Of a stretch of DNA of 64,000 nucleotides, positions 1,209 through 64,000 are shown in pieces. Positions within the stretch are counted from its first letter, which is position 1. Each line of letters begins with the position of its first letter. A program made the position numbers and the translations under genes. The DNA comes from Ascidia mentula. Lineage: Eukaryota > Chordata > Ascidiacea > Phlebobranchia > Ascidiidae. The notes under the pieces are model-generated. The model was not told the DNA's origin. It ran no database searches and worked only from the letters and a program-made list of their open reading frames with translations. The stretch covers positions 27,492,266 to 27,556,265 of the forward strand of contig OX387197.1 in NCBI GenBank assembly GCA_947561715.1, given 5' to 3'.

Positions 1209-2234
1209 TTATTTCTTTCCTTTCCTGACCATCGCATAAGTTTGTTCCGCACCATTGCAGTCACGTGGTGTATCTACGTCATCGTTGTATCCACGTGCTT
1301 CCGTGTTATAAGTTTGTGCATGTAAGCTTGTGTGGTGGAGGTGGTCGTACGTGTCACAATCCTCATTATTATTAACTTGGTCGTAAACCGCTTCGTTGGT
1401 AGATTCAACCCTGGATGAGGTTCCTGCTTTTGGTTGGTTTTTCTTCTTTCGTGGTTTTGCGGTTGCGTAGATCGGGGTTGGGGTTTGGGAGGTTTCTTGT
1501 GCTTAGAAAACAAACGTTAAAAGTAGTACTTGTGCATAATTCACTACAACATATTTGTGGTTATGATAGTTTGCTGGTGTGTTGTTTCCTAATACTAAAA
1601 AACGACATTAAGTTATTTTGTTTCCGTTGAAAGAAACCTTTTGTTTAAAGCACGAAACCAACACAGGCGCGCAAACTGATTGCTTACCTTGCTCTTCTCC
1701 TTCCCTTGTCTCGTTGACAATCTGCTGGTTGTCAGCTCTTCTTGAATCGCAAACACAACACGGTTTACTTCGGTCAGTTGTGTCGGAACTTAAAAACTTT
1801 CTGTACCCCATTGTTACGTCATACTGATAACTTTACCTGCGTTTCCTCCATAAAACCAATCCAGTGGCGAGGATTAATAAGATGATGACGATCACAACCC
1901 CAACAACTGCACCAACGATAGATGATGAATCCGTAATGTTTAATGGTAAATTCACATCAACTGTAGTTGGGAAAGTGACTGAAAATAATGAACATTTGGA
2001 AACTTCTGCGAAACCGTGCGGGCATAAATTGGTAAAACCAAACTGTTTAAAACGAAACTTTTTTTCCGTATGGGAATTGGAGTGGATAGATTTGTTGTTC
2101 GAACATTGTAGTTTTTCGTAGTCGGCAGTCCATGCAACTTGCAAACATTACTGTACTATTTTACCTGGTTTACTTGAACTGTTGACCCCAACATTATGAA
2201 CGGTGACGTTTGTTATTCCATTGCTCGAATGTAG

Positions 2235-2304
<70 letters not shown>

Positions 2305-4784
2305 ATTGTGCTTGGTGGTGTGGCCATGGAGCTATGTTGAGTTGTGGTTTTCTTTGTGTTTGTAACTAAACAACATTTTAGATTCGCGTTTTTATTGATT
2401 TTAGTAACTTTAGGCTCGAAGTGTTTCTGGTACGCGAGCAACTGTAACGTTTTATGCTATGATGTAATGCTCAAATTAACTTTTCATGAGGTAATGGAGT
2501 GACTTCCAGTTTTTTTACCCTAGGAGATAACTCCCGTTCCTGGAACGGCATAGGAGAATGGCTCGTAAGATGTAATTATTGTATCGTGGTCTCACGCGAT
2601 CGAATACCTTTAGTGGTATATAATCGGTAGTTTTGTGGTGAAATATTATTATACATTTTGGCTTGCAATTGTGTAGAATCGCCGTCTGCTATCCTGCACA
2701 AGTATTTCGTTCGTATCCTGGAGACAAATAAACAAACTAACCAAAGTCTGGTTCGCTACCAATGAGAAGTCAGGAGTCAGGGAAACGCAGCCGCAGCTGA
2801 ACACGTAATCAACAAACAACAAACACACCCCTAAATCTTACACAACTAAATTAACATTGCTGAATACTGCCCTTCTGGCAAACTTTATTTTATTGACGTT
2901 TCTCAACGTTTCGGCTGTTATGCAGCAGCCTTCATAAAGGCTGAGAAACGTCAATAAAATCAAGTTTGCTAGAAGGGCAGTATTCAGCAATAGATATGCC
3001 TGGCAGCGTCAGTAACAATTTAAATTAACATTATTTACAACGACTTCAGACCTCACAATGCGCATTATTGCATGACAATTTTACCCGCATTCTAGTTACA
3101 AGTGTTTATGACGCACTCACACGGTTGTTCTTTTTCTCATAACTGTTAAACGGAAAAGGTTCTGACCTTTTCAACCAGAAACAGGTTGGAAAACAAAAAC
3201 ATTACGTCTTTAGTCAACCTAAGTGATGCGTACTACAGTCTGTGGCCATTAAGATCCCGAGGTAATGCAAGAAGTTGTTTACTTTAAAAGCAAATCTACA
3301 TAGTTTCACATCCATAGTGGTCTCACATATTTCTCGAAGCGAAAGAATGGCCTACAAAAGATGATAATGATAAAGGTTAGGAATAAAGGTTTGGAACCAC
3401 TGGTTTAAGGGATGTAATTAATATTATTGTGTACGCACACATCTTTATGAATATTTTAAAAATTATTCGTTCCTCAGCTTTTGGCCTTCACTGAAGTTTG
3501 CGTTTGTAGTGGAATTGTTCAAACCGTGAAAACAGTACAAACACAAAACGTGATCTAGTTAAAGAGGGATTCGATCAGAAAAAATAATGCGAACCAAGAT
3601 TTCATCTAAGAAGATCTTAATTAGTTTTTTTTGTTCGTTTTATGAGATTTACCTTCCGGCTTTCGTTGACAAATATATCTCGAAGTAACATTGCATTCCG
3701 TACTTCTCCACTTGTATGTTGGATCAAGTGAAGTTAATGAACCCATTATCACACAATACTTTTCTCCTGTTGCGATCGGTTCCCCTGTTGCCCACTGTCC
3801 ATTGTCAATATTTGATCCATCCGTCCACTTATAGATGTTTGTTCCTGCAGCTCGTTTCGCTCCAATGTAGAACGAGTTTGGCTTGGCTAAAAGCAACATC
3901 AGAAGATTCTTTATACCTTATTTGCATATTTCCATGTTATTTTCCGATATTTTACGTAAGGCATAATAACACAAAAACAAAAAATACTTTCAAAAAAATT
4001 ATTTAACCTTTTTTTGATTTGTGAACACAGTGTGTAATTTAGAGTTACGAACAAAACATTAAATAATTTAGATCTAAACCACCTGTAGTCCAGGCAACCA
4101 GAAAAATGGGCAAAATTTGTTGATGCACACGCAAACTTTCTTTAAGTTTAACTTGTAGCAGATGTTTGACTCAAATAAACTTTTGTAGCTTTGTTAAATG
4201 ACTAGAGAATCAAATATGATGCGAACACTGCATCCCCAATAGAGAAAGGGCCATGGACCTGCTCTAAGGACTTATACCGGTCACTGGTTCCACTGAATGG
4301 GCGAAATATGTTAATGTGATTCCGATTATGATAAAACCCAGTGTCGCCATTTTTTAACAACCTACATTATACCCTTACGTACCATACGGGGCGTTATGGG
4401 ACGTGAAAATATACAGAAATAATTACTTTGCAATCCTTAAGCAGTTAAGCATAGAACGTGAGCCACAAACATTGGGGACGTTGTTGATGTTATTTTCGCT
4501 ACAATATCACAGACAACAAACAATTTCATTACGTTTCAAATACCTGTTACTGTTCCAATCTTTCCCACCAGAAAGTTAAATATAGCTGTTGTTTTAGGCT
4601 GGGCGACGAAGGCTTTGTAGGCATTGCCAAGACCCGCATTATGCGAACTGCATGCAGTTTCAGCATCTTGGTATGAATTAACTTGAGGTCCGATCAAATA
4701 TTCATGATAGTCATCATCTTGGTGCCAAGTTTGTCCAAAAACAACAGAAAACATGAACCCAAGTATTATGGTCAATATTTTCAT
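1209..4784 (-). CDS. L2: transmembrane C-type lectin-like receptor, type B tail
   Basis: Complete-looking type I membrane receptor. Exons in coding order: 4544-4784 (signal peptide MKILTIILGFMFSVVFG, then TWH...YLIGPQVNSY..AETAC), 3653-3886 (FYIGAKRAAGTN, EPIATGEKYC, TECN, YICQR), 2165-2365 (Thr stalk including an uninterrupted (ACA)n/Thr run), 1837-1978 (TM, SSIVGAVVGVVIVIILLI then WRKRR), 1688-1740 (linker RADNQQIVNE) and 1209-1501 (tail). The four canonical CTLD cysteines are present, but no EPN/WND calcium motif is seen. Exon 1 has an insertion (AYKAFVAQP) shared with the exon at 30974-31220. The tail has PIYATAKPRK, YDQV-x8-YDHL and TYAMV. An upstream in-frame ATG at 4817 is possible, but 4784 gives the better signal peptide. 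Ligand unknown. Confidence 0.8.
2232..2306 (+). repeat. (GTT)n trinucleotide microsatellite inside the L2 stalk exon
   Basis: Roughly 24 uninterrupted GTT units, read on the minus strand as ACA (Thr) codons. Length changes would alter the receptor stalk in steps of one residue without a frameshift. Confidence 0.9.
2857..2990. mobile_element. Foldback/MITE-like element with 49-bp terminal inverted repeats
   Basis: Left arm 2857-2905 and right arm 2942-2990 are inverted copies with about two mismatches, around a 36-bp centre. It lies in the L2 intron between the stalk and second CTLD exons. No coding capacity. A non-autonomous DNA transposon is likely; the family is not identified. Confidence 0.7.
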
Positions 4785-7290: not shown

Positions 7291-8974
7291 TTATTCGACT
7301 TTCATGTACGAACTTTCACCCCCAGTCATGGAAGTGTTTCCCACATTCTTGTTTACGTATTCATTTTGCTTTATGACGTCATAGTCATGTTTGGTGTTTT
7401 TGGGTGGTTTGTGTTGGTTGTTTATAGGTCGGTGTTGGTTGGTTGATGGAATGGTTTGTGGAACTATGTACGTTTCATCTCCATCCTCTGTAACATTCAT
7501 TTTAAACCATGCGATATAACCTGGGGTTTTTATGTTAGTTTCCCAACAAAATATCCTCACTTACCAATAGGTTTGGTCCCTATCCCATGGTGACCAGCTC
7601 TGCGAATGTGAACAATAAGTTTTAACCTTTCTATAATAAACGTTATTTTCATCACTGAAAACCAGCAATCACAAGGTAAAGGAACAACGTTTTTGCCTTT
7701 TTATCGTTGAAACTTCGTCGAAATGTTTGTGGTAATGTTTATACTCAAACAATTTTGTCGATATAAGCAGGTTTTTATGTGGCTGCTTACTGGTGTTTTG
7801 TCCGGTTGTAGAGGAAAATCATAGAGGCGATATTCAATACGATGACGATGACCACAAGTACGACTAATACAGTAAATATCCTTAAAATGTTGTTGATTTC
7901 GTCCGATGAACGATTGTAGATTGCTGTTGAACAAAGGATCAACTTTAAAAGTGATGCAAATATTTCACAAAGAATGCGATTTGCTCACGTATGTAATTGG
8001 TGGTAAAAGTGGTTGGTTCAGATTCTCTGGTGGTTGGTTCCATTGTGATGGTGGTTTGTGTGGAACTGGTTGTGTTTGGAAAATGAGTGGTTGTTGTTGT
8101 GCTTGTGGTTGAAGGCGATGTAGAAATTGATGAAGCTTAAACATACGGAATAGACCGATTATTATTGTTGTTGTTACATATTAATACAAAATAAAATATA
8201 TCTTTAGCCCCACAGTTGTTATATGATTACGTTTTAAAGCAGCCTCGACGCCAACTTACCTTTTACGATACGTTGACAAATATATCCCGAAGTAACATTG
8301 CATTCCGTACTTCTCCACTTGTATGTTGAATCAAGTGAAGTTAATGAACTCATTATCACACAATACTTGGATCCTGTTGCGATCGGTTCCCCTGTTACCC
8401 ACTGTCCATTGTCAACATCTTTTCCATCCGTCCACTTATAGTTGTTTGTTCCTGCATCTCGTTTTGCTCCGATGTAGAACGAATATGGGGAGGCTGTAAA
8501 ACGTACACAAAAATCACCATCAGAAAAAATTAATTCAATTTGCTCTAACTTTGTAATCAGCATTGATGTTTTTCGTAGTTAAAGGCTTCCCCTCTGCATT
8601 CAATCCAAATTTTAATAATCTCGACTTCATTACTGGCTTTTAGTCTACGTCATTTGGAGGTGGAAGGTGATTCAATACTGGGTTCGCTTGAATAAAATTA
8701 CCAAAAAAGTGTTAGATTCACACACATGTGATTGTTGCCCATTCTCACTGCACTCACCTGATACTGTTCCAATCTTTCCCACCAGAAAGTTAAATATATC
8801 TGTTTTTTTTACATCGGCGAGACCTCCTCCCTTTCCACTGCATGCTGTTTCAGCTTCTGTGTATGAGTTAACTCGAGGTCCGATCAAATAATGCTTCACT
8901 TCGTCGAATTCGTGCCAAGTTTGTGCGAAACAACAAGGAAACAAAAGTAAACTTAAAACGACTTGAAACTCCAT
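7291..8974 (-). CDS. L3: transmembrane C-type lectin-like receptor, type D (ITIM-like) tail
   Basis: All expected exons are open. Coding order: 8758-8974 (signal peptide MEFQVVLSLLLFPCCFA, then TWHEFDEVKHYLIGPR), 8260-8493 (FYIGAKRDAGTNNYKW, EPIATGSKYC, TECN, YICQRIVKG), 7989-8135 (Thr stalk), 7791-7923 (TM, ILRIFTVLVVLVVIVIVLNI then FLYNRTKH), 7565-7599 (small linker AGHHGIGTKPI) and 7291-7520 (tail starting GYIAWFK). The tail tyrosines are ETYIV, DYDVI, EYVNK (pYxN, the Grb2 SH2 class) and a terminal SSYMKV matching the ITIM consensus [S/I/V/L]xYxx[V/L]. The TM has no charged residue, so signalling through its own tail is expected. An inhibitory role is inference. Confidence 0.82.
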
Positions 8975-9623: not shown

Positions 9624-10220
9624 TCACGTTTCAATCGATCCAGAGCAGTGAAGAGTATCGTAATCATCATCCTCACGTCGTTCCTCTCCCACGCGACTGT
9701 AAACTTTGTCGTGTGGTGGCGCCATAGAGTCGGGTTGGTTTCTATTCTTTCGTGGTTTAGCGGTGGCGTAAGTCGGTTCATTGGGGTCACCATTGGCTTC
9801 TTCTGCTTGAACAACATAGGTTGTAAATCGTTTGAGAATGAATCCAATATATTTCTATATTGTTGTCGAGTTGAAAGTTGAGGAACCTTAGACGCAATTA
9901 TCCCACAAAGTATCTCTGTATGGAACAGAAGGAAAATAATTGTCTAAGGAATATTTTATAATATTTGCTTCCATACCACCAGCTTGTTTGTCATCTGCCT
10001 GCTCATCACTGGTTTCTTGGTTGCTTCTGTAAACAAGTTGAAATGCTCAGATAGTTTTAAATGCTCCAAATTCACGTTTAAATTAAATCACGAGCGTTTA
10101 TTCACCTGTTGTGTTTTTTCCACCATAGGAAAACAACAACAACACAGATGATTATGAACATGAATATTCCGATCACTGCCCCGGTAACAGCCGACGAACT
10201 GTTGTTGTTTGTCAAAGCTG
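9624..10220 (-). pseudogene. L4: type A receptor remnant, TM and tail without ectodomain
   Basis: Three intact exons: TM 10106-10220 (SSAVTGAVIGIFMFIIICVV then FLWWKKHN), linker 9977-10026 (SNQETSDEQADDKQAG) and tail 9624-9805 (PTYATAKPRK, KVYSRV-x9-YDTL). Upstream, the intron sequence normally between TM and stalk (compare 36890-36990) runs at about 10490-10500 directly into sequence normally 5' of exon 1 (compare 38040-38170 and 44160-44260). Stalk and both CTLD exons are therefore deleted. Unless an outside exon is used, no receptor can be made. Confidence 0.75.
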
Positions 10221-14609: not shown

Positions 14610-14646
14610 CTTAACTAGAAATTTATGTCAAGAAATATACGTTTCT

Positions 14647-14664: not shown

Positions 14665-14665
14665 C

Positions 14666-15974: not shown

Positions 15975-17770
15975 TTATTCGTTTCCTTTCCTGACAATCG
16001 CATAAGTTTGTTCCGCATCATTGCAGTCCCGTGATGTATCTACGTCATCGTTGTACCCACGTGCTTCCGTGTTATAAGTTTGTGCATGTAAGCTTGTGTG
16101 TTGGAGGTGGTCGTACGTGTCACAATCCTCATCATTATTAACTTGGTCGTAAACCGCTTCGTTGGTAGATTCAACCCTGGATGAGGTTCCTGCTTTTGGT
16201 TGGTTTTTCTTCTTTCGTGGTTTTGCGGTTGCGTAGATCGGTTGTGCTGGTGTTGTGGTTGGGGTTGGGGAGGTTTCTTGTGCTTGGGAAACAAACGTTG
16301 AAAGTAGCAGTTGTGCAAACACTGTAGTTATGATAGTTTGAGGATGTTGTGATCTCCAATACCAAGAAACGACGTTAAGTTACATTGTTTCCGTAGAAAG
16401 AAACCTTTTGTTAAAGCACGAAACCAAAACAACCGCGCAAACTGATTGCTTACCTGGCTCTTCTCCTTCCCTTGTCCCGTTGACAAACTGCTGGTTGTCG
16501 GCTCTGCTTAAATCGGAAACACAACACGGTTTACTTGAGTCGGTTGTTTTGGAACTGAAAAACATTCTGCAACCCATTATTACGTCATACTGATAACTTT
16601 ACCTGCGTTTCCTCCATAAAACCAATCCAGTGGCGAGGATTAATAAGAAGATGACGATCACAACCCCAACAACTGCACCAACGATAGATGAAGAATCCAT
16701 GACGTTTGATGGTGAATTTACATCAACTGTTGTTGAAGAAGTGACTGAAAAATATCGATTTAAATAATCTCCATTTAATTTTTTGACTGCGGCATTTAAT
16801 CAACCGTTTTTGACAAGAGAAATAATATTTAAAACAAAGGAATTTATTGGCATTGAAACCCGAAGAGTTATAATCACACCCTGGGCACCATTGTAGCTAT
16901 TTTTCTTGTGCTTTGTCGCTTGGCCTTCTGGCAAAATATAGGCAACGTTTACATAAATATGCTTGGCAAACAAAATGATTTTACCTTTCTTGTTGGTTGT
17001 TGATAGAAATGTGTCTTTGGCGTGGGTTGTTGTCACCAATGTTGATGTTTTGCTTGTTATTGTAGATGATGATATGCTCGCAGCTGAAGTTAGAAACCAT
17101 ATTACGCGGTACTATACTATATTTCCGAAGTGGACGACGCAATGTCAATAGTCTACATATTTAATATAAGCACTAACCTCCCGATATCCGTTGACAAATA
17201 TATCCTGATGTAACATTGCATTCCGTACTTCTCCATTTGTATGTTGAATCAAGTGAAGTTAATGAACCCATTATCACACAATACTTTTCTCCTGTTGTAT
17301 CCGGTTCCCCTGCAGCCCACTGTCCATTGACAGCATCTGCTCCATACGTCCACTTATAGTTTTTTGTTCCTGCAGCTCGTTTCGCTCCGATGTAGTACGA
17401 ATATGGTGGATCTTCAAATAAGAAATATATTTGTGACACAATCTAACAATTTTTTTCCAGTTGTAATAGACTGAATCTGTATGTTTCTTTGCTCTACTAA
17501 ACGTGGCCTATACTAATTTCAAGTACCTGTTAAAGACCTTATCTTTTCCGACAAGAAATTGAAAAGAGCTGATTTTGCTATGTTTGTCTTTAAAAGTGGT
17601 TTGACATGAGCAACCTGTGCTCCATGGTTAGCGCATGCGTTTTCGGCATCCTGATACGAATTCACTGATTGACCGAATAAATATTCGAAGTCAATGAAAG
17701 TTGGTGAGTGCCAGGTTTGGGACAAAGTGACAGGAAAGCAAATTAAAAACGACACCGTGAACAGCCTCAT
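15975..17770 (-). CDS. L5: transmembrane C-type lectin-like receptor, type B tail
   Basis: Intact compact gene. Exons in coding order: 17527-17770 (signal peptide MRLFTVSFLICFPVTLSQ, CTLD start with YLFGQSVNSY and NACANHG), 17178-17411 (YYIGAKRAAGTKNYKW, EPDTTGEKYC, TECN, YICQR), 16985-17093 (Ser/Thr stalk), 16603-16744 (TM plus WRKRR), 16454-16506 (linker RADNQQFVNGT) and 15975-16282 (tail). The tail carries PIYATAKPRKKKNQP, VYDQV-x8-TYDHL (ITAM-like spacing), QTYNTE and terminal TYAIV. First-half CTLD spacing differs from other members (KPLLKTNIAKSALFNF). Phases match all other loci. Ligand unknown; it probably acts on the cell surface. Confidence 0.85.
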
Positions 17771-29000: not shown

Positions 29001-29328
29001 GTGGAATTCAGGGATATATTATATTTTCCCCTAAAAAGGTCTATCAGTTTTGTAATTTTATGCTTTTTTTCAATACCTGTAGGCCTAAACATTTTTTTAT
29101 TTAATTAATACCCGTATCATTTCCAATCTTTTCCACCAGAAAGTTAAAGGTAGCTGTTGTTCCAACATCAGCTGGATATGCATTGTGTGAACTGCATGCA
29201 GCTTCAGCTTCTGTGTATGAACTAACTTGAGGTCCGATCAAAAATTCGTCTTAGTCATCCAACTTGTACCAAGTTTGTCTACAAACAACCGGAAGCATAT
29301 ATCCAAGTATTACGATCAGTAATTTCAT
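26078..29328 (-). pseudogene. L8: C-type lectin-like receptor, type C (ITAM-like) tail, nonsense codon in exon 1
   Basis: Exons in coding order: 29112-29328 (signal peptide MKLLIVILGYMLPVVCR; in-frame TAA at 29251-29253 after KLDD where paralogs have Tyr or His), 28156-28389 (second CTLD half), 27884-28072 (Thr stalk), 27566-27677 (TM, IIGSVAGIITLCIVILIVMS then LRRKR), 27292-27335 (linker) and 26078-26496 (tail). The tail is the longest in the main family: PIYATAKPRR, EYEDYVTP, EVYTDM, SYDTL-x9-TYDQL (ITAM spacing), a second ETYDQL, VYDRP and terminal TYAMV. All exons except exon 1 are open. An intact alternative exon 1 lies at 30974-31220, so the locus may still be expressed. Otherwise it is a pseudogene or a null allele. 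Confidence 0.72.
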
Positions 29329-39090: not shown

Positions 39091-39091
39091 A

Positions 39092-44092: not shown

Positions 44093-44374
44093 CTGTTATG
44101 CATTAGCCGACTGTGCTAACATTGCGGGTATAACAGATACCTTAGGGTCGGGAAACTTTCAAGTGCAAAGTTCTTTTGTGCGGGACTTTTTGTTTAATTG
44201 TGGAAAAGGAAAATATCGCCTCTGATGAAGATGATGATTAAAATATCGTGGAATATTTTTGGAACAGACAAACCGATTAAACCATAACCATGTATTTCTT
44301 CAACTACATTTGCTCAAAGTAATCAACTCCACATTAACTGTGTTTAGGTTTACAAATGTTAGAGAGTTATTGCA

Positions 44375-46126
44375 ATGCTTGTGATTGCGTTGTGTTTACT
44401 TGGCTTTCCTGGCATTCTGGCACAAACATGGTACAAGTTGGATGACTACCACTACTATTTGATCGGACCTCAAGTTAACTCATATACAGATGCTGAAACT
44501 GCGTGCAGTTCACACAATGCATAGTTGATTGTTGGTTATTTTGCAACCTTAAAAACGTTGAAAAATAGTTATTACAGTTCGTCCATTTAAAATATGCCCT
44601 TGAATTTGGTTTGAGTATCGACTTCCAACAAAGTAGTTTGTTTGCTTGTGTGATGAAAGTTACGCTGAGCAGCTGTAAATCTTCCGTGTTTTCAAATTTT
44701 ATTTTTTTCGATTTTTCTTCTTCTTCGAGTTCCACAATATTCCTTTTACATCGGAGCAACACGAGCCGCAGGAACAAACAACCATAAGTGGACGGATGGA
44801 TCAAATATTGTCAATGGACAGTGGGCAACAATGGAACCGGATACAACAGGAGAAAAGTATTGTGTGATAATGGGTTCATTAACTTCACTTGATTCAACAT
44901 ACAAGTGGAGAAGTACTGAGTGCAATGTAACATCGAGATATATTTGCCAACGAAAACCTAAAGGTAACTCGCATTATATTCCATATCAACGACACAGAAA
45001 ATAAATGTTGAAATTATGTCTTATTTGTACCTTTTAGCTGCTACAACAACGACCACTACTGTCAAAAACAGCAAAAGTACAACTTTAACCAGCTCAGGTA
45101 AATTAACATCAACCAGTGTGAACACAACCACGGGTTCCCAACCAATCACTTCACAAGGTTCAATTATTTGTTATAAAGAAAACATTCACCGTCAGTCTTA
45201 TGGCCGACAAAGAATTCAGTTAACTTTTGACATCCCCTAAGTTGTTTGTCAATAAAAATGTTTTTGATTTTACGGATAAATATTTCTGCCTACTCCTGGG
45301 CATCCTTAATATCAAGTTTAAAGTTTAAAATGTACTGTTTTGAAACGGACGATGAATATCAGGCGAAATATCTATTTCAGCGATAACAATACCTTGTTAA
45401 CGACTAAAGAATCAGGGTTATAAACTTAATATAAATCGAAACAACTTTAACAACATTTTCTAAATGCACATATTTTCGAAAACAAATCACTCACGTACGT
45501 TCTTTGTTGCCTTTTGTAGCAGCTTCAACAAACAACAACAGTTCGTCGGCTGTTACCGGGGCAGTGATCGGAATAATCATGTTCATAATCATCTGTGTTG
45601 CTGTTGCCTTCCTATGGTGGAAAAAACACAACAGGTGAATAAACGTTCGTGATTTAATTTAAACGTGAATTTGGAGCATTTAAAACTATCTGTGCATTTA
45701 AAACTTGTTTACAGAAGCAACCAAGAAACCAGTGACGAGCAGACAGATAACAAACAAGTTGATGGTGAAGAAGCAAATATTATGAAATATTCTTTAGACA
45801 GTAATTTCCCTTCTGTTCCATACTGAGATACTTTGTGGGATAATCGTATCTAAGGTTCCTCAACTTTCAACTCGACAACAATATAGAAATATATCAGATT
45901 CATTCTCATACGATTTACAACCTATGTTGTTCAAGCAGAAGAAGCCAATGGTGACCCCGATGAACCGACTTACGCAACCGCTAAACCACGAAAGAATAGA
46001 AACCAACCCGACACTGTAGCGCCACCACACGACGAAGTTTTCGTGGGAGAGGAACGACGTGGGGATGATGATTACGATACGCTGCACTGCTCTGGATCTA
46101 GACGACAGAAACGTGAACAGATGTAA
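44375..46126 (+). pseudogene. L13: type A C-type lectin-like receptor with broken exon 1 and damaged ITAM-like motif
   Basis: Exon 1 starts MLVIALCLLGFPGILAQTWY like L10 but ends CSSHNA-stop (TAG at 44522). The rest of exon 1 (LANVKTTAIFNFLVGKIG in paralogs) and its donor are missing. Later exons are open: 44730-44963 (FYIGATRAAGTNNHKW, EPDTTGEKYC), 45038-45157 (Thr stalk, 120 nt as in L10, with an internal gtaaat read through), 45520-45634 (TM), 45715-45764 (linker) and 45936-46126 (tail). The tail has PTYATAKPRK and YDTL, but a 6-nt in-frame deletion turns EVYSRVGEE into EVFVGEE, removing the first ITAM-like tyrosine. It ends RRQKREQM. Probably a pseudogene unless another exon 1 is used. 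Confidence 0.78.
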
Positions 46127-46730: not shown

Positions 46731-48088
46731 ATGGAGTTCGTAGTCGTTTTAAGTTTACTTTTGCTTCCTTCTGGTTTCGCACAAACTTGGCACAAATTTA
46801 ATGACTTGACATATTTTTTGATCGGACCCCAAGTTAATTCATACATAGAAGCTAACACAGCATGCAGTGCATGGAATGCATATCTCGCCAACGTAAAATC
46901 TACAGCTATATTTAACTATCTGGTGGAAAAAGATTGGAGCAGTAACAGGTGAGTGAAGCCTTTATACACAGTGCCGCAATCACATTAAAGTGTTTCTAGT
47001 GTTTAAACTTTTTTCTGGCAAGAGTGACTTTGCGGTTGTTTACTATTCCTTGCCCCATAGGACAACAATCACACGTGTGTGAATCCAACAATGGTTTAGT
47101 ATTTGTAAATTTGATTCAACCGTTCCAAGTAACGAATGTACTTCCCACTGACGTTAGTGAAAGCCAGCAACAAAATCGAGATAACTAAAATTTTCGACAA
47201 AATCCAGATTGGAAACCTTTAAACTGAAAATAACATCATATTTCAAAAACAAACCTGATTCTAGTTTGAAACGTCACTGAATATTAAGCAGAAATTTATC
47301 AATGTTTTTCTTAAGCTCTCCCACACTCGTTCTACATCGGAGCGAAACGAGCTGCAGGAACAAATAACTACAAGTGGACGGATGGATAGAATATTGTCAA
47401 TGGACAGTGGACGCCAGGGGAACCGATCGCAACAGATGAAAAGTATTGTGTGATAATGGGTTCATTAACTTCACTTGATTCAACATACAAGTGGAGAAGT
47501 ACGGAATGCAATGTTACATCGGGATATGTTTGTCAACGTTACGAGTATCCTAGTAAGTTAAAAGTTATTTTTCAGTTTTGTATAAAAGTGAAACAACAAC
47601 AACAACAACAACAACCACAATATTTATCGATCATTTTCCTGTGCCTAAGCCACCACAGCTACTAAACCAAGTCCAACCACGAGCACAACAACAACCACTC
47701 ATTTTCTAACCACAACCAATACCATCAGTTCCACACAAACCACCACCACGATGGAACCAACCACCAGCGAATCTGAACCAACCACTTTTGCCACCACTTC
47801 CATACGTGAGTAAATCGCATTTTATGTCAAATATTTGCATCACATTTAAACTTGCTTCAACAGCAATCTACAATCGTTCATCGAACGAAATCAACAACAA
47901 CATTTTAAGGATAGTTGCTGTAATGGTCGTACTCAACCAACCAACACCAACCTATAAACAATCAACACAAACCACCTAGAAACACCAACCACGACTATGA
48001 CGTCATAAAGCAAAATGAATACGTAAACAAGAATGTGGGAAATACTTCCATGACTGGGGGTGAACGTTCGTACATGAAAGTCGAATAA
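46731..48088 (+). pseudogene. L14: type D receptor pseudogene (frameshift, stop, internal fusion)
   Basis: Exon 1 at 46731-46948 (MEFVVVLSLLLLPSGFAQTWH) is 218 nt, one more than its 217-nt paralogs: an extra A in the run at 46927-46931 shifts frame (VEKDWSS). The second CTLD exon 47316-47552 has TAG at 47387-47389 in WTDG-x-N. The stalk 47659-47805 is open. The TM exon begins at 47864 (IYNRSSNEINNNILRIVAVMVVL), but near 47935 it is fused directly to the middle of the type D tail exon, deleting most of the membrane span, the linker and the tail start; the join is out of frame. The tail remnant to 48088 retains YDVI, EYVNK and SYMKV coding sequence. Confidence 0.85.
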
Positions 48089-50610: not shown

Positions 50611-52773
50611 ATGAAGTTCAAAGTCATTTTAGGCTTACTTTTGTTTCCTTGTTGTTTCGCACAAACTTGGCACGAATTCGACGAAGTAAAGCATTATGTA
50701 ATCGGACCCCAAGTTAACTCATACACAGAAGCTGAAACAGAATGCAATGGAAAGGGAGGAGGTCTCGCCGAAGTAAAATCAACAGCTATATTTAACTATC
50801 TTGTGGGAAAGATTGGAACAGCATCAGGTGAGTAAAGTTTGAATCGCACATTACCAGAAGTTTGTCACTCAAAGTCCCGATGTTTCTTGTTTAATTAATA
50901 TGTCAAAAACAACAGAACAACAACAACAACCAGTAGCATCGCAAATTGTTTGTATTTTTTTTCCTTCAGAAACAAAATGATAAATATTAAGTTAAGTGAA
51001 TGGGGTTAAGTATGTGCGGCTTGGTTCGCAACATTTGCATCATTTTGGCAAATATACATTGGGATGAAACGATTCAAGTTTAGACTTAATGCATAGTCGT
51101 GTTGGTCAAAAATGCAAAAGAAAGTTAAATATAAGTACAAAAATATGTTTGTCAACTGTGGCTTCGGTCGGTAACTTTGAGGCAGCATCAGGACATAAAA
51201 CCAAGTCATATCAAGTAAATACTGTTTCTTTCTTGCAAGCTTCACCATATTCGTTCTACATCGGAGCAAAACGAGCTGCAGGAACAAGCATCTATAAGTG
51301 GACGGTTGGATCGAATGTTGTCAATGGACAGTGGGCAACAGGGGAACCGATCGCAACAGGATCCAAGTATTGTGTGATAATGGGTTCATCAACTTCACTT
51401 GATCCAACATACAAGTGGAGAAGTACGGAATGCAATGTTACATCGAGATATATTTGTCAACGTATCGTAAAAGGTAAGCGGAGTGCTAAGCATTGAAAAT
51501 TATTTTGAGTCTTTACAAACAAAGGTGATTTATAAATTAGAAGCAGATTGTGCGGTGACATGAAAGTATAATTTTCCTAGCTTAACAGAAAAATGCGTTT
51601 CCGAACAAATATTCGTACAAACATGTCAACAGCAGACAACACAAATGACATCCAAGAAACCTCGCACTGTTCTGTGTTTGTAACACATCAACTTGTTTCT
51701 GTTTTCACGCTTGTTCGGTATAAATGACTGACATGATTTTATATCCCCCTTAGCTACCACTGTGTCAACGATTTCCACAACCACTACGAAATCCAAGACC
51801 TCTTTAACAAGTTCATCCGAAACCACAACTCTGAAAAAATCAAGTGCGGGAACCACAAGGAACACCACGGATTATATTTCAACAACGGAAAGTTAGTGAA
51901 AATTCACATATCAGTGTACAGTTACATTGTGCTAGTCTAACACAAAACACTAAAACAGGCTAGAGTTTTGCGTATTTAATTTGAAATCTCACCTTTTTTT
52001 TCTGATCAAGTAAAATCAAGATAGACACAAAGCACCTGCTGATGTACAAAGGTTTTAAGATTATGTATTCCTGTTTTCTGCATAAGGTTTGTTAGCTTCA
52101 ATGCAACAAAAATATGTCAAAGGAGAATGTTTACGTTGAAAAAACAATTGAAAGCCGTTGGTTGAAAAAGAGACCTAAACTTACTTTAATAATTGCTTTC
52201 CACTGCACTCCCACAACCAATACATTGTAAGATGCAGGTTTGAATCCACCACCCAATAATTCAACCGTGGTCGGAGTCACAGTTGGAGTTTCCATTCCAG
52301 TTATCATATTACTTGCAGGAATAACTTTTGTGATGTGGAGAAGGAAGAGGTGAAAGTATGATTTAATACAAATATTGATATAGTTCTCTCGATGTTATTG
52401 CAACAATCCCCAGATATTTATATGTTTTTGCGCAAAATAAACAAAGTTTTGATGTAAACAGATCTGACGAGCCGAGGAATTTCAATGAAGTGAGAACCGG
52501 AAATGATGCTGGTTAGAATATGATTTCTATCTTTGTTTTTGTTCGGGGAAATCCCGCAACGGTGTTTAGACATTCACGTTTTTCCTCCCTCAAGCAGAAG
52601 AAGCCAATGGTGACCCAGATGAACCGACTTACGCAACCGCTAAACCACGAAAGAATAGAAACCAACCCGACTCTGTGGCGCCACCACACGACGAAGTTTA
52701 CAGTCGCGTGGGAGAGGAACGACGTGAGGATGATGATTACGATACTCTGCACTGCTCTGGATCTCGAAGATAG
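50611..52773 (+). CDS. L15: transmembrane C-type lectin-like receptor, D-like ectodomain on type A (ITAM-like) tail
   Basis: Complete six-exon gene: 50611-50827 (signal peptide MKFKVILGLLLFPCCFA, TWHEFDEVKHYVIGPQ, ECNGKGGGLAEVK), 51240-51473 (FYIGAKRAAGTSIYKW, EPIATGSKYC, TECN, YICQRIVKG), 51754-51891 (Thr/Ser stalk), 52238-52349 (TM, VVGVTVGVSIPVIILLAGIT then MWRRKR), 52462-52511 (linker SDEPRNFNEVRTGNDA) and 52595-52773 (tail). All phases are canonical (1,1,1,2,1). The tail has PTYATAKPRKNRNQP and EVYSRV-x9-YDTL, ending HCSGSRR. The ectodomain resembles L3 and L12, which carry ITIM-like type D tails, while TM and tail are of the other class. This indicates exon shuffling and a possible activating partner. 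Intact on + strand. Confidence 0.87.
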
Positions 52774-54693: not shown

Positions 54694-57600
54694 ATGAAGT
54701 TGTTGTTGCTGATGTGTTTTCTGTCCCTCTCACAAAGTTGGCAACGGTTGGGGAACAAGGAATATCTTATAGGAGCAAAAGTTGATCTTTTTAACGAAGC
54801 CGAAGCACTTTGTGGTGCACAGAATGCGCATCTGGCCAAAGTCAACACAATACATGTTTATAATTTCCTGGTGGTTGTGATTGGAGCATTGTCAGGTCCG
54901 TCAACCTTAGAGTGATTTTAAAACTTGAAGCAAATCGATTTGTGGCGTTAAACTTTACGGAATATTAAAATCTTAAGACAAAAAATCGTCTTACTTTAAT
55001 CATAATTATGTGATCTGTAGACAGATGGCCACTGATTCGACATACTGGGTCTCATCAGTGTAGCTTGGTGGGATGTTGTCTCTCTAATCACTAAATTTGC
55101 TTTGTACACTTTGTATTACTTTCTCGGTCTAAATTACGTTTTACGAGCAGATAATTTTCCACTTCATAGAGTTCCCATATTCGTTGTACATCGGAATCAC
55201 CCGCATCCCTGGAACAAACCTCTTCCAATGGTCGGATGGGACAAGAGTGGGAAGTTCGAACTGGGCGAGGGGAAATCCCAACAACGTAGGAGGGAACAAG
55301 GATTGCGTCACAATGGGATCACTCGATAAACTCACAAACCCTCCGTTCTACTGGGTGACGGTCCCATGTACTTATCCTTCCAGATATATTTGCGAAAGAA
55401 GTTTTCCAAGTATGTGCTTAAAACAGGGTGGAGTTTTACATATCAACGGGGGTGCGGCGAGTACAAATTGCTAACTTCAGAAGATCGTTTGCACGCTATA
55501 TTATACAGGTTATAACATCTTTCATGTTAACAAGTGTTTTAGCCTGCGATGTAAGTAATTGCCGATCGAAAAAAATTGACGAAACGTGGTTTTAAATAAA
55601 TGCCGTTGCGACGAACTCAGTGGGAATTTTCTTTACATAAACGATAACGTTATTTCGCTTGTGTTGCGTAATTATAGATCGCAATTTCGAGGCATACGAA
55701 ACTGCGCGTTAAGCGCCTTTACACGGATAATTAGAGAAATGTGCCTTCATTTTACTGTGGTTTGAACCGAAGGAAGCCGAAAAACGCGTGGATTGTGTGG
55801 ATAAATTTAGGAAAAAGGCCGGGTTTGCGCGGCACCTCTGCACCCCTGCACCCTCTGTACTCTACGCCAATGGATTAAAAGTTACACTATAGGGTTGCTC
55901 GAAAAGTTGTTCATTAAGCTACAAGATTACTGATATCACAAATTGATTAGGGTAAGTGTCTGCTGGGCAAAGTTATAGCGCTTCAATACGACTGCGCACA
56001 AAGTAATTCAGAACCGGATTATTTGTTGATCTCGCTTTGACACTGGAAGGCATGTGAAGAAATGTTGCCGTGAAATATATTTATGTTTTAGACAATGACC
56101 AGACAACCATAATCAACCGAAGACGGACAAGCAACAAAACAAGCAGATTGACAACCGAAGTAATTAAAAGCCTCGAACAGAAACAAACTAGTCAGAAAAT
56201 GTACAACAAGGAATATCTGATTGGACCTCAAGTTGATTTGCATTCCGAAGCCGAAACAGTTTGCAAAGCACAGAATGCACATCTGGTCAAAGTCAATACA
56301 ATACATGTTTACAATTTCCTGGTGGTTGCAATCGGAGCATTGTCAGGTGCGTCAACTTTAGTGCGATTTTATCACATAAATCTTATCGATTTGTGGCGTT
56401 AAACTATACGGAATATTAAAATCGTACGGCAAAATATTTGTCTTACATTAATCATAAAATTTGCTTTGTAGACTTTGTATTTCTTTCCCTGTCTTAATCA
56501 CGTTTTACGAGCAGATAATTTTCCACTTCATAGAGTTCCCATATTCGTTGTACATCGGAATCACCCGCATCCCTGGAACAAACCTCTTCCAATGGTCGGA
56601 TGGAACAAGAGTGGGAAGTTCGAATTGGGCGAGGGGAAATCCCAACAACGTAGGAGGGAACAAGGATTGCGTCACAATGGGATCACTCGATAAACTCACA
56701 AACCCTCCGTTCTACTGGGTGACGGTCCCATGTACTTATCCTTCCAGATATATTTGCGAGAGAAGTTTTCGAGGTAAAGAAAATTGAAATGCCCAGATAG
56801 GTTACTAAAGTTTAGGCTTTGGTTCCCTTGGGATTCCGGACAGTGAAAGTACCATAAAAATGTTACATTTTTTAGAGTCAACTACAAGTGAAACCACCCA
56901 GGTACCAACTACCAAATCAACAACCGCCAGAACCAAATACACTGCACCACCAACAACAACTTCTACAGTCAAACCATCTACAGCCAAACCACCGACAACC
57001 AAAGCAACGGCCAAACCATCCCTAACCAAAGCAACAGCCAAACCACCCCCAACCAGATCTACGGCCAAACCACCCACAACAACTTCTACAGTCAAACCAC
57101 CGACAACCAAAGCAACGGCCAAACCACCCCCAACCAGATCTACGGCCAAACCACCAACAACCAGATCTACGGTCAAACCACCAACAACCAGAACAACGGC
57201 CAAACCATCCCCAACCAGATATACAGCGAAACCACCAACAACTAGATCAACGGTCAAACCACCAACAACCAGATCTACGGTCAGACCACCAACAACCAGA
57301 ACAACGGCCAAACCATCCCCAACCAGATATACAGCGAAACCACCAACAACCAGATCTACTTTCAAACCACCGACAAGCAGAACAACGCCAAAACCACCCA
57401 CAACCAGATCTACGGCCAAACCACCAACAACCAGATCTACGGCCAAACCACCAACAACCAGATCTACGGTCAGACCACCGACAACCAGATTTACGGCCAA
57501 ACCACCAACAACTAGATCAACGGTCAAACCACCAACAACCAGATCTACGGTCAGACCACCAACAACCAGATCTACGGCCAAACCACCATCAACCAGATCC

Positions 57601-58248
57601 ACGGTCAAACCACCTACAACCAGATCTACGGCCAAACCACCAACAACCAGATCAACGGTCAAACCACCAACAACCAGATGTACGGTCAGACCACCAACAA
57701 CCAGATCTACGGCCAAACCACCAACAACCAGATCAACGGTCAAACCACCAACAACCAGATCTACGGTCAGACCACCAACAACCAGATCTACGGCCAAACC
57801 ATCTACAACCAGATCTGTGGTCAAGCCATCTACAACGAACACAACTATTGACGATGCGTCATCACCGCCGATTACAGCCATTGCATCACCAAGTAACACG
57901 AGATACTGTGTAAACAGTTAATAAAATGTACCGTAATGGTCGAATGGAATTCTATTTACGACTAATTTCTGCGATAATATTTGTGATTAACTCTCAGTCT
58001 AAGACGGACCTTCCGCTAACTTAATACGTTTTATCAACAGCTGGTTTAACCGACATGTGTATTTACATTATCGTCGGTTCAGCGGTTGCTGGGGTTTGGA
58101 TCGTTGTGATTATTATAGTTGCTGTTGTTCGAATGAAGTCGAAGAAACGGAATCACAGGTGAGGATTTGTTCGATTCGAAACTAAACTATTTAAAACAGT
58201 GGTTATTGCAGGAGAACGCCTGTAGTGGAACTGGCCGATGTATATTAA
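54694..58248 (+). CDS. L16: mucin-stalk transmembrane C-type lectin-like receptor with duplicated CTLD exons
   Basis: Exon 1 at 54694-54895 (signal peptide MKLLLLMCFLSLSQSW, KEYLIGAKVDLF, ALCGAQNAHLAKVN). The second CTLD half is present twice, almost identical: 55170-55409 and 56534-56773 (LYIGITRIPGTNLFQW, GNPNNVGGNKDC, VPC, YICER). Between them is a copy of exon 1 at about 56196-56346 without a signal peptide. Then comes stalk exon 56876-57907 (about 34 KPPTTRSTV-type 9-residue repeats), TM exon 58041-58158 (IVGSAVAGVWIVVIIIVAVV then MKSKKR) and a short last exon 58212-58248 (RTPVVELADVY-stop). Phase 1 joins exon 1 to either second-half copy; the downstream copy has the better stalk-joining donor. 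The NPN motif replaces the mannose-type EPN. The short tail has one terminal Tyr, so signalling is uncertain. Confidence 0.78.
56940..57840 (+). repeat. 27-bp coding minisatellite (KPPTTRSTV/A)
   Basis: Tandem 27-bp units encoding Lys-Pro-Pro-Thr-Thr-Arg-Ser-Thr-(Val/Ala), in frame throughout. Every unit offers several O-glycosylation-type Thr/Ser. Expected to vary in copy number between alleles. Confidence 0.93.
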
Positions 58249-60036
58249 AGGGAAGAAGTTGCTTTCGCTGTGAATAGCCACCGGATGTTACGTCACAGTT
58301 TCACACCAAAGGAGCCAGATGAAAACAAGTCAGCCCACCAACTTTCCAGTTTTATATTACCACAACAACCAATCGCCGCCACTAACAAGGATGACGTCAC
58401 GCAACCACATATGTAACGATTTATAGTAAGATATATTTAACCATGCTGTATCTGGCGTGTGTTGGATTTTGCCGATTTCATTTGTGTACTTTTCATGGTA
58501 TCTTATTGTTGTTGCCATTTTACTGTTCTGCATTTAACCATGTGCAAAAAAACTGTATAAAACGACCCCCTCCCCACAACACACATTTGATATTCAATAC
58601 CCTGGTTTCAATTCAGAATAAAAGTTGACTTGAAAATATCTTGGGAAGCAATTGTAAGTTTGGTGTTTCAAGCCTTACTTTGTAAATGAGAGCAAATATG
58701 TATCCACCACGTGGTTTGACTCCATCACAATGCGGTCTATAAAGAAGACGTTAATTCCCTTTTATTCCTGTATGCAAATATTTCTCTTAACCGATTTCCG
58801 ATTCCAACGTCATTCGGTTTCTGAATTGTTTAATTTTTTTATTGTTTAACAAATTAAACCTACATCCACTCGTAACTTGTTATTTTCAATCTGAATGTTG
58901 GAAGTTCCGCGGCGACGCATGCATGGAAACAAACGTTGCAAAAGTCAACTATATAATGAACTTTGGTTAACTTCACAGTGTAAATATAGAGTGAGCATGA
59001 ACGGAATAGCGAGGTCAAGTCCCGAGCTAAACAATAGAAATAAAAAGTTTACTGTGGTCAATCGACGTCACCACTCTTGTGACCTTTCATTTGAAATCTG
59101 CACGGAGGATGACGGGAAGACACTTAATTAATACCATCGTAAAAACTATATAGGGGATCACCACAAATATTAATGTATTATAAACTGAGGAGGTATTTTG
59201 TAATATTTATGCAAATGCAAGTGTGTGTACGGTTACATGACATGTCAAAAGTTACCAGACAACTTTTAACAATTCCCATTTAAAATTGCAACAACCCAGC
59301 TAATGAAATGTTGTTTGTTAATTTTATTCGGAGCAATTCTGACACACAGCGTCATAATGAATCCTGATCCAGACAAAACTGACCGTGAACTTTGGAGGTT
59401 TATTTTAGGCTATGAGAGTTAATCTTAGTTCTTTCAAAATAAATTCCCATAAAATTAGTGTTTGAGTTGTTCGACAATTTTACTAGTAAAGTCAAAGCTA
59501 ATATGCTATAAACACAGCACTGATGATGAAACGTTTGCTTGTAATGATCAGCTTTGGATTTTTTATTCCATGCAACCAAAAGTTATTCGCAACTTTTGTA
59601 TCTACAAATTGTTGAAAGTGGCAAATATTTATTCGGTAGCTTTCAAAATACAAAATATCCAACCGGAAATCCATTGTGACATAACAAGGGGCAAAGATGG
59701 GATGAACGCGGATGAATATAGTCAGCTTCAACGCGATGGAAACTTTACACAAAATTCACTGCGCGATGACGAACAATAAACTGAAAACTTTGTTAACTCT
59801 CCGTTTTGGGATGCTGCAGTTCAAATATAGAACAATGAAGGCCCGTATGAACGAATCGAAAGCAGACGACCTGAAATAAACAATAGAACGTTGACCGACG
59901 TCATTACTCACACCGTCTAGGATACTTGTTTGGAAGATGGACTATCAGCCTCACAAAGTTAGGCTTCGTTAAGGTTAGTTCAGCGAGATTCCCAAACCAT
60001 ATAACTGAGGCTTGGGATTATTTTCACACCTTAGCC
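58249..60036. other. Intergenic L16-L17
   Basis: No CTLD exon. Contains the tail-exon remnant at about 59640-59779. The open frame at 58895-59131 shows no recognisable domain. Confidence 0.5.
59640..59779 (+). pseudogene. Remnant of an L17-type cytoplasmic tail exon
   Basis: Reads PEIHCDITRGKDGMNADEY, SQLQRDGNFTQNS, then stop at 59777-59779. This closely matches the middle of the L17 tail (PEIHCDITRGQDGEDADEY, QQLQRDGNFTQTS). The rest of that tail and the other exons are missing nearby. Could be an alternative last exon of L16, but a truncated duplicate is simpler. Confidence 0.65.
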
Positions 60037-62230: not shown

Positions 62231-63148
62231 ACACGTGGCTACAGTACTTGATTCAGACTATTCCCAACTGAAAACATACAGATGTTTCAAATATTACTTT
62301 TTTAAAGCAATAACCAAGTGAGAATGTTATTATTATTCAGAAAACCAAACGTACTTTGGACTTAGTGACGCGCCAAGTTATGTCAAAAAATAGGTAAAAC
62401 GTGAATCTAGTGACAACAAATCACTGCAACCCGAGATTGTTCCATGTTTGTATTCAGTTAAGTAATGTAAGACAACCAACAACGGGAACAGTTTGCGCTA
62501 AATCCTTTTCCACATTCATGTGAGTTTTTTGTGCCCAGTTGTCTTTCACGATATTCATGAGACCTGTTGTATATTATGTGCAGTAAAGTGTTGATCACGT
62601 GGTGTGAGTAATGATCATTTTGTCGGTCCTGAGCTCCTGTCTCGTGTTCACCTCGTGGTGACGTCATAAGTCGTGTGTGGCGTAACTCGCGATAAAAAGT
62701 TGTTGCTTCCTCAACGGTGGAAACAAAAATTTTCTTTGAAGCGCAAGGAGTGGAGGTGGCTTAACCGGCGCTCGGGTCGGTTTCAACCATGTTGAACTCA
62801 ACGGTAACCACCTGGTTTAAACAGAATAAATCGCAAATATTTTATGCGTGGATTTAGAATTAGCAGCCAAGGTTTGCAGCGGAAGAAATACAGCACTGTT
62901 AATTTGAAATTTCACCAAACGTTTCAGTCAGAAGATGCGAAAAGTTTGCGATCAGAGAGTTACAAATATTCAGCATTCTTCTGATAATCGGGTTTAGGAT
63001 TCGTTAACAAATAAAAATGTTTAAACAATAGTGGTTTGGTGCAAATGCAGGAGAAAAGTTTTTAAGCAAACCAAACCGAGTTTCTGTGAGTTCATTTTTG
63101 TTCACTAAATCCTAATTTCTTTCCAGCGATTTACCCGAAGAACTAAAC
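62231..63148. other. Intergenic L17-L18, nothing recognised
   Basis: No exon of the family and no clear repeat. The acceptor-like ttctttccag near 63115-63125, just before the L18 ATG, may mark a 5'-UTR intron. Confidence 0.45.
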
Positions 63149-64000
63149 ATGAAGTTTTTGTTGGTGTGTTTTCTATCTGTGGTCTCTGCAAAAATCTGGC
63201 ATAAAAATCCCACAATCGACTTTGAGTATTTCATCGGACCTCGAGTCTCTTCATATTACGAAGCGGTAAAAGCATGTAAGGAAATTGATACTGGAGCCAG
63301 CGTCGCTAATGTTAAAGATGTTGACACCTTCAATTTCCTGGTGCAAACAATTGGGGATGTGTCAGGTGGGTATTTCTGAATGCCGTCCTCAGGGGAAGTC
63401 CCTAAATCAGTCGCAGATAACTGTTTTGTTTTCAAAACTTTTTAATTTATCTCAAAAAAATAGTTTCTAAGTTGATGATAAATAAAGTTAACAGTCTTGA
63501 TCACCACGCTTTGTTTGTTTAAACATTTCATGGTCATCGTGTCTCTTTTATACACAAAAAAAGAAGAAAAATGCGAAGCACAAAGTAATGTCGTGTACTG
63601 TGGGTTTGACATCTGTCAAAAAACTACGCATGTTAATAACGTTACACTTTTAGCGACGACGTTAACCTAAATTGCAATATTTTCAATTTTATGCTTTATT
63701 TTCAAACTTTGTTAACGTTACAGCAGCATACATCTAGTGTGAAACCTAGTCCAGTGCCACAATTACCAGCTGCATTGATGAGATCTTTCAGGGGAAACAT
63801 TGTTTTCACCTGTCTGCATCTCTCAAGGATTATTATTGCTTTTTTAACACCTACTCTACATTTCCAGCTTTCCCGTACTCGTTCTATATCGGAGCAACAC
63901 GAGTTCCGGGAACAAATAATTTTATATGGACGGGTGGAACGAGTGCTGACAGTGGACAGTGGAGTGGAGGCGAACCAAACAACCAGGGTGGAAATGAGAA
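63149..64000 (+). CDS. L18: C-type lectin-like receptor, 5' part, with EPN motif
   Basis: Exon 1 at 63149-63365 (217 nt, the family length): signal peptide MKFLLVCFLSVVSA, WHKNPTIDFEYFIGPRVSSY, KACKEIDTGASVANVK. Exon 2 starts at 63868 and runs off the window: FYIGATRVPGTNNFIW, SGQWSGGEPNNQGGNE. EPN followed by a downstream Glu is the classic calcium/mannose-type motif of C-type lectins, absent from the other loci here. This copy may bind sugar. Stalk, TM and tail are beyond the edge. Confidence 0.75.

Follow-up and report, generated by a model that had tools for sequence, protein, structure and literature searches.

Does a receptor inherit its recognition surface together with its signalling tail, or can the two be recombined? 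This question is raised by the 64,000-nucleotide stretch C1:27,492,266-27,556,265 (C1 is contig OX387197.1, 27.92 Mb; the stretch, hereafter the window, lies near the contig end). A tandem array of genes for receptors with a C-type lectin-like domain (CTLD) is present there, and an earlier note, made from the letters of the window, had described it as a modular, single-locus set of activating and inhibitory receptors. The tandem array is real. The reading favoured here, with a probability of roughly 0.65, is that these genes encode putative type I CTLD receptors with tyrosine-motif tails, known here from genome sequence, and that exon 2, which encodes the second half of the CTLD, has been exchanged between signalling classes. 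The modularity is stronger, and the split into activating and inhibitory receptors weaker, than the earlier note had it.

A shared exon plan with class-specific tails

Gene models were built by an exon-by-exon search combined with a splice-site search (transmembrane (TM) exon, other exons and four stalk exons). The plan comprises six exons: a hydrophobic, signal-like start with the first half of the CTLD; the second CTLD half, usually in 234 bp; a Ser/Thr-rich stalk; the TM segment; a short juxtamembrane stretch; and a tyrosine-rich tail. In eight window models all five introns have GT/AG borders and the junction phases are 1,1,1,2,1, as previously proposed. Six of these models (G1, G2, G3, G9, G11 and G14) are intact from Met start to stop, while G6 contains one internal stop and G8 has a Lys codon at the start position where the others have ATG. 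Over 264 kb (the window plus 100 kb on each side), 35 units have matches to exon 1, exon 2, TM and tail. The splice-site comparison, like those of neighbours, identity, divergence, recombination, simulation and sister genes below, started from 33 of 35 genes with the main (C2a) exon 2, two genes with a C-type TM being left out; six checked splice sites lie at the homologous place and phase, with a tolerance of at most 3 codons, in 27 of the 33.

Three models were compared with Pfam, and in each of them Lectin_C (PF00059) alone passed its cut-off, with E 5.3e-7 in G1, 1.2e-8 in G3 and 5.3e-9 in G14; the match spans the join of exons 1 and 2 and covers positions 3-107 of 107. These values, from 5e-7 to 5e-9, together with tail B homologues elsewhere in the genome with E down to 4e-62, indicate that the matches are not due to chance. 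Among PDB structures, domains of the PLA2 receptor and the mannose receptor come closest to the G14 CTLD. Calcium- and sugar-site motifs of CTLDs are EPN or QPD, followed by WND; these are not found in the exon-2 consensus, which by eye reads EPI and WRS, and copies of a second subfamily, C2b, read NPN or EPN with WVT or WRD. The topology appears to be type I, judged from the hydrophobic, signal-like start of exon 1 and from a TM segment and tail C-terminal of the CTLD. A protein database search with the G1 model gave 2212 word-sharing candidates, none with E <= 0.001.

Four tail classes, A, B, C and D, can be told apart, besides a distinct tail, L17, at 61.9-62.2 kb, in agreement with the earlier description. 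TM type matches tail type in 44 of the 45 genes having both; in the lone mismatch a B-tail fragment lies behind a D-type TM. The best 21-residue TM windows are free of charged residues in A (14 copies), in B (15), in C (3) and in a further type, TM-E (3). In class D, an Arg stands just before the best window in 11/11 copies, two of which also have a Lys inside.

Exon 2 is decoupled from the tail class

Trees were inferred from genes with a C2a exon 2, TM and tail, and rows shorter than 75% of the exon length were dropped, so that 39 rows were kept for exon 2, 34 for exon 1, 40 for the TM and 35 for the tail; the gene at +117490, where a B-tail fragment lies downstream of a D-type TM, was assigned to D on account of the TM. 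On the maximum likelihood tree of exon 2 the tail label changes 19 times, compared with 20.7 ± 1.5 for shuffled labels (228 of 1000 shuffles as low). The corresponding numbers are 12 for exon 1 (shuffled 18.4), 4 for the TM (20.8) and 5 for the tail (18.9). A single exon-2 clade is rejected by the approximately unbiased test for B (p 9e-7) and for D (p 0.0086). Moreover, exon-2 distances are not significantly correlated with those of exon 1 (r -0.04), the TM (0.08) or the tail (0.05), with map distance (-0.05) or with tail class (0.08; 133 of 2000 shuffles as high).

The same picture emerges along the gene when the nearest neighbour of each copy is considered. It belongs to the same tail class in 0.70 of cases upstream, in 23/33 (0.70) for exon 1 and in 24 and 25 of 33 (0.73-0.76) at the two ends of intron 1. 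At exon 2 the value drops to 13/33, or 0.39 (chance 0.27 ± 0.09; 232 of 2000 shuffles as high), the deepest point of the profile. It then rises to 32/33 (0.97) at the start of intron 2, 0.97 before the TM and 33/33 (1.00) at the TM, with 0.94 before the tail and 27/33 (0.82) in the tail exon itself, where the TM-E genes share tail A; G5, which has a tail fragment only, is among the 33 with an extrapolated tail segment. An alternative is that the 3' modules moved and not exon 2, crossing-over in introns having placed the same tails behind old ectodomains. It would fit the age of exon 1, which is likewise old and only partly linked to tail class, and the youth of TM and tail within classes. However, exon 2 is less class-linked than both of its flanks, so that the 3' modules could account for the pattern only through a double exchange around exon 2, and we regard this explanation as unlikely.

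Synonymous divergence (dS) was computed from stop-free copies of each exon (30 for exon 1, 31 for exon 2, 31 for the TM and 30 for the tail). Pooled values within and between classes are 0.20 and 0.23 for exon 2, 0.62 and 0.73 for exon 1, 0.07 and 1.62 for the TM, and 0.085 and 1.25 for the tail. At the start of intron 2, an alignment is possible for 69 of 145 pairs from one class and for 4 of 383 pairs from different classes. Compared at fixed offsets, members of different classes are 0.74-0.99 identical across the exon-2 bins, and their identity is about 0.3 farther than 20-30 bases from the exon. Trees, neighbours and dS thus agree that the recognition exon is common to the tail classes and that its flanks are not. 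The modularity of ectodomain and tail claimed previously is borne out, with the break located at exon 2. As an observation of its own, exon 1 within classes (dS 0.62) is far more diverged than exon 2 or the tails, and its pairwise homoplasy index (PHI) test is strongly positive (0 of 1000 permutations as low).

Exon 2 might also only look shared, if strong constraint that included silent sites had kept it alike with no exchange at all. Its identity is indeed even, 0.876 within and 0.872 between classes (equal-length pairs only, 75 of 145 and 210 of 383). The PHI test gave no significant recombination inside the exon, and homoplasy is no higher than in a simulation free of recombination; both results suit constraint and count against exchange, and under exchange they imply that exon 2 moved whole and not in pieces. 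Against constraint, dS is flat along exon 2, 0.25 in each of three parts (38 copies), while nonsynonymous divergence (dN) varies threefold: dN/dS is 0.43 before the stretch from YKW to YCVIM, 1.04 within it and 0.33 after it. This stretch we take to be the ligand-contacting long loop of CTLDs; a dN/dS near 1 there is equally expected under relaxed constraint. Furthermore, in the same genes the between-class dS of exon 2 is a third of that of exon 1 and under a fifth of that of the tail. The C2b subfamily is only about 45% identical to the main subfamily in exon 2, so the CTLD fold does not demand this sequence. Sister genes speak in the same direction. In pairs of the same class with both introns at least 85% alike, exon 2 was less alike than the intron mean in 10 of 11, with dS of 0.18 for exon 2, 0.077 for introns and 0.25 for exon 1, although the same genes recur among the pairs, and selecting them by intron identity lowers the intron distance. 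The value of 0.18 is near that of any pair (0.20-0.23); the tail dS of these pairs, 0.175, was not used since a frameshifted class A copy enters 3 of the 11. Constraint alone is the least probable of the explanations considered here.

Two genes 1.3 Mb away, at C1:26.125-26.171 Mb, keep the order of exon 1, exon 2 and tail seen in the array. Compared with A, B and D genes, their exon 2 differs by a dS of 0.17-0.23 and their exon 1 by 0.45-0.78, and their D-like tails differ from the window D tails by 1.23-1.38; it must be added that the two were picked for high exon-2 identity. At C1:26.09-26.18 Mb, six D-like tails are 44-53% identical to the query.

Besides the way in which sister and distant genes were chosen, several points weigh against exchange. 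Seventeen exon-2 matches at C1:26.09-26.18 Mb divide into 9 at 81-91% and 8 at 52-77% identity to the query, so that the pool would be common to some, not all, genes there, and the C2b and C2c genes at 54.7-64 kb of the window stand outside it; exchange is consequently not universal. The best cross-class identity in exon 2 is 94% (210 equal-length pairs), which leaves no sign of very recent exchange between classes. For class A, a single exon-2 clade is not rejected (p 0.21). Many window copies are broken. Finally, tail tyrosines within classes A, B and D are not retained significantly more often than the remaining residues, the losses being 6/48 in A, 1/84 in B (p 0.06) and 0/40 in D (p 0.16).

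In the process that we favour, each receptor would begin with a signal peptide, followed by a single CTLD encoded by two exons, a mucin-like stalk, a single TM helix and a tyrosine tail for SH2 proteins. The 3' module, from intron 2 through the tail, would descend as one block within each class (A, B, C, D or TM-E), and exon 2, the CTLD half with the long loop, would pass between copies of different classes. Ectopic gene conversion is the most likely mechanism, since homology between classes stops within a few tens of bases of exon 2. The recognition half could then sit on different signalling outputs, and a common pool kept by conversion may allow one ligand to meet several signalling tails.

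Tyrosine motifs and possible signalling

The earlier note held that A, B and C tails carry a pair like the immunoreceptor tyrosine-based activation motif (ITAM) on the receptor itself. Such motifs are present, behind uncharged TM segments, but in A and B the match depends on admitting V or M at +3. The strict pattern, YxxL/I-x6-12-YxxL/I, is found in 0/16 A, 0/14 B, 0/8 D and 2/2 C-type tails (one of these two genes has an exon 1 stop), and the relaxed pattern in 11/16 A and 14/14 B tails. The class C tail of G6 is the sole strict match among the window tails tested, and exon 1 of that gene carries a stop. Elsewhere, by eye, the open tail frame of a gene at C1:25.68 Mb contains YSQL-x9-YNAL, YNAL-x9-YNQL and YDSL-x9-YDQL; strict ITAM repeats beside CTLD exons therefore occur in this genome. 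In a separate CTLD gene at window +137978 to +140216 (C1:27.630-27.632 Mb), a tail frame open for 201 codons repeats YDTLQQSAQHAD, which makes up a series of overlapping ITAMs.

For the inhibitory side, the pattern of the immunoreceptor tyrosine-based inhibition motif (ITIM), [SIVL]xYxx[LV], occurs in 8/8 D tails of the 264 kb (SSYMKV) and in 2/2 L17 tails (SNYSKV), though it also arises in about 10% of shuffled tails of each kind; among A-D, D is the sole class that shows it. In two diverged D relatives 1.3 Mb away, which are close kin of each other, motif positions are kept in 16/19 and 14/16 cases, and other positions of the same tails in 17/54 and 18/53 (p 8e-5 and 2e-4). Y[IN]VP, YDVI, YVNK and YM[KR]VE are kept in both, and in both DAYMRV replaces SSYMKV, so that the Ser at -2 is lost. 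The tyrosine motifs of D tails are thus constrained, the ITIM reading of them is not, and an inhibitory class does not follow from it. Of the proposed activating and inhibitory pairing there remain tyrosine-motif tails of several classes; A and B are without the strict ITAM and the ITIM match of D is not kept under divergence. Labels of activating or inhibitory for the tail classes would be weakly founded on such sequence patterns.

It is possible, if doubtful on balance, that no such split exists and that every class is either activating or adaptor-type, with A and B acting through weak ITAM or hemITAM-like motifs and D through the Grb2-type YVNK, perhaps with an ITAM adaptor held by its Arg. 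The constancy of that Arg just before the D-type TM, with none there or inside in A and C, the retention of YVNK where the -2 Ser of the ITIM is lost, and DDDY[DN]TL in 12/16 A tails are all in keeping with this proposal. The placement of the Arg presumably resembles that in FcR-gamma-coupled receptors. On the other hand, SSYMKV is present in every D tail of the 264 kb, and the two diverged relatives yielded no D-type TM; their hydrophobic frame has an outer Glu and no Arg (by eye). A search for a zeta-chain adaptor (PF11628) found nothing, with its controls silent too.

As for possible readers of the tails, Syk-type kinase frames exist in the genome, as judged by sequence likeness. Two neighbouring frames, C67:7964865-7966748 and C67:7976934-7978697, are open over two SH2 domains and a kinase and are apparently intronless there. 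For the one of the two that was compared, SYK/ZAP-70 is the closest kinase family, with matches to full-length SYK chains at 1e-91 and to ZAP-70 at 4e-87; its sole better match is labelled EGFR, with the best stretch in the kinase domain. As to a phosphatase of the SHP type, there are SH2 matches and phosphatase matches in the genome, none of them side by side by eye among the matches listed (150 of 532 phosphatase candidates scored). Separately, among the matches listed, exon clusters of phosphatase domains, several with stops, occur at C2:3.8-6.4 Mb and C72:16.9-17.4 Mb, which suggests expanded phosphatase-domain families. Expression of the receptors at the surface, phosphorylation of the tails, their reading by Syk or Grb2 and use as matched receptors with different outputs are predictions of this reading.

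Vertebrate natural killer (NK) complex receptors combine a CTLD, a tandem cluster and tyrosine signalling with type II topology. The array shares the CTLD with these and with CD94-like receptors and differs from both, as far as they are described, in its type I topology and C-terminal tail; excerpts of PMC5465252 describe the tunicate CD94-like lectin CiCD94-1 as without carbohydrate binding. From Halocynthia, the same excerpts describe a glycoprotein of hemocyte aggregation that has two ITAMs and is alike as an ascidian receptor with its own ITAMs; it is presented as a single glycoprotein, and the comparison extends to the tail only. In mammals, CEACAM1/CEACAM3-type paired receptors have ITAM-like motifs of their own, cytoplasmic exons replaced between paralogues and, in marsupial members, a Grb2-type YxN motif (PMC2832619, in excerpt). 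The array resembles them, as there described, in tyrosine motifs on the receptor itself, in cytoplasmic exons that vary between paralogues and in the Grb2-type motif; it differs in having a CTLD instead of the Ig-like ectodomain of a mammalian family, at least four tail classes, dozens of copies and a similar exon 2 in genes 1.3 Mb apart. PMC5701461 reports gene conversion around the ligand-binding-domain exon of Siglec-11 and Siglec-16, an inhibitory and an activating receptor; the likeness is conversion at the recognition exon, and the difference that these are one gene pair of primate Ig-like lectins. Within tunicates, the fester co-receptors (FcoR) of the Botryllus fuhc locus are type I and multigene, with tails bearing ITIM, hemITAM or YxxI/L/V core motifs (PMC12065747, in excerpt). 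Set against the array by description, fester and FcoR seem to be the nearest tunicate system in the literature covered, the shared points being host group, type I topology and multiple genes; FcoR have Ig and sushi domains, lie beside a fester partner and have no CTLD in the plan described in those excerpts. No paper on such a tunicate CTLD array was among those listed from the open-licence PubMed Central literature. Paired receptors would accordingly serve as the working likeness; membership in the CEACAM, Siglec or FcoR families fails on the ectodomain.

A further-reaching proposal, to which we give somewhat less than even odds, is that conversion deals a pool of exon 2 over more than 1 Mb to at least four kinds of tail, yielding receptors that are matched in recognition surface and differ in output, an independent lectin-based counterpart of CEACAM, Siglec and KIR. 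If this were true, exon-limited conversion that keeps paired receptors in step would not be confined to mammals and would have evolved anew, on a different fold, in the vertebrates' sister group. Dozens of natural recombinants, with recognition and signalling already apart, would then be available in the array, so that the rules of tail choice could be tested directly. A role outside immunity, for example in gamete recognition, allorecognition or tissue adhesion, is rather unlikely in our estimate, yet other polymorphic tunicate recognition systems do exist, fuhc/FcoR of Botryllus being an example (PMC12065747, in excerpt).

Extent of the array and features of the window

The genome searched comprises 196 Mb in 79 contigs. 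In COX1 on the mitochondrial contig C79, aligned to the best-matching COX1 chain (5j4z) and counted by eye, 13 of 16 AGA/AGG codons stand opposite glycine and the other three opposite Ala, Gln and Ala, none opposite Ser or Arg. AGR read as Gly is the ascidian mitochondrial code; the host is therefore a tunicate, which confirms the invertebrate supposed earlier. Of the 770 candidates from a Lectin_C profile search, the 150 that were scored all exceed the cut-off, and the majority of them lie on C1 at 22.4-27.6 Mb. The array extends across both 100 kb flanks of the window. Counting partial and broken copies, tail A matches 30 places in the genome, tail B 42 (C1 31, C71 5, C73 4, C69 1, C52 1) and tail D 33, 8 of these at C1:25.3-26.2 Mb. 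On the same count, the tandem-tyrosine tail at window +138 kb (C1:27.63 Mb) has 24 matches including itself, on C1 only, the other 23 being weak and all at 25.35-26.39 Mb. The description as a single locus was thus wrong, related genes being spread across megabases of C1 and on C73, C71, C69 and C52. Likewise, of at least 14 loci said to follow one exon plan, the tandem array and its shared plan stand, and the window holds only 11 units in which matches to all of exon 1, exon 2, TM and tail occur (the tail match of G5 is a fragment only), of which 8 are fully modelled and 6 intact. The other units are fragments, broken copies or members of other CTLD subfamilies at 54.7-64 kb. In layout, a minus-strand block at 1.2-43.4 kb is bordered by plus-strand flanks on either side. 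Part of the array, C1:27.466-27.513 Mb, has a near-identical counterpart in reverse order at C73:5.412-5.446 Mb (99.6% identity over 3.3 kb at the one place compared), which may be a recent inter-chromosomal duplication or a misplaced haplotype.

From left to right, the exon search places at 185..349 (+) a class A tail, the gene of which begins outside the window, about 1.3 kb to its left. The minus-strand block opens with G1, class B and intact (1209..4784; exons 4784-4544, 3886-3653, 2365-2165, 1978-1837 for the TM, 1740-1688 and 1501-1209 for the tail), followed by the intact class D gene G2 (7291..8974; exons 8974-8758, 8493-8260, 8135-7989, 7923-7791 for the TM, 7599-7565 and 7520-7291), whose 234-bp exon 2 (8260..8493, phase 1-1) exemplifies the CTLD half that is probably exchanged. 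An orphan class A TM and tail, the 5' half of which was not found, lies at 9636..10212; it adjoins a retroelement (10972-14627) that separates it from G3 and has reverse transcriptase, RNase H and integrase with an upstream frame matching DUF7041. On the same strand follow G3, an intact class B gene with a full six-exon model (15975..17770); G4, a class D remnant with two exon-2 stops (19595..20630); and G5, class B (21785..25296), with exons 1-5 open and downstream only a tail fragment at 20731-20618. G6, class C (26078..29328), has the strict ITAM YDTL-x9-YDQL and its one internal stop in exon 1. A lone exon 1 was found by exon search at 30975..31220, and G8, class D (33330..35547), is open apart from its start codon. 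The block ends with G9, class A, intact and fully modelled in six exons (36185..37911), G10, exons 1-2 only with an exon-2 stop (39073..39829), and G11, class D, again intact with a full six-exon model (41754..43399).

On the plus strand, exon 1 of G12, class A (44372..46126), is cut early by a stop and its donor is absent from the usual place; G13, class D (46731..48085), has an exon-2 stop and lacks the TM donor and tail acceptor at their usual places. G14 (50611..52773), a full and intact six-exon model, joins a class A tail to the different TM, E. Beyond it lie the other CTLD subfamilies. G15 (54694..55405) consists of exons 1-2 of C2b, its TM and tail not being found with the queries used. 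The partial model of G16 (56211..59776) comprises a C2b CTLD, a Thr/Pro stalk at 56976-57816, a TM-like frame at 58025-58159 and a partial L17-like tail. That of G17, the L17 gene (59887..62230), has a probable exon 1 in frame 59887-60282 (by eye), a C2c CTLD at 60418-60630, a stalk at 60835-61145, a TM in frame 61254-61556 and the tail at 61892-62227. G18, a C2b CTLD gene (63149..64000), runs past the window end, with its TM at 64470-64571. Tandem repeats of 27 bp (56976-57816, G16) and 21 bp (60835-61145, G17) encode the Thr/Pro-rich stalks, which thus differ greatly in length between these neighbours. Lastly, a tRNA-Thr match at 34392-34467 and repeated open reading frames at 34.2-34.8 kb and 21.4-21.7 kb perhaps represent a tRNA-derived short interspersed element.

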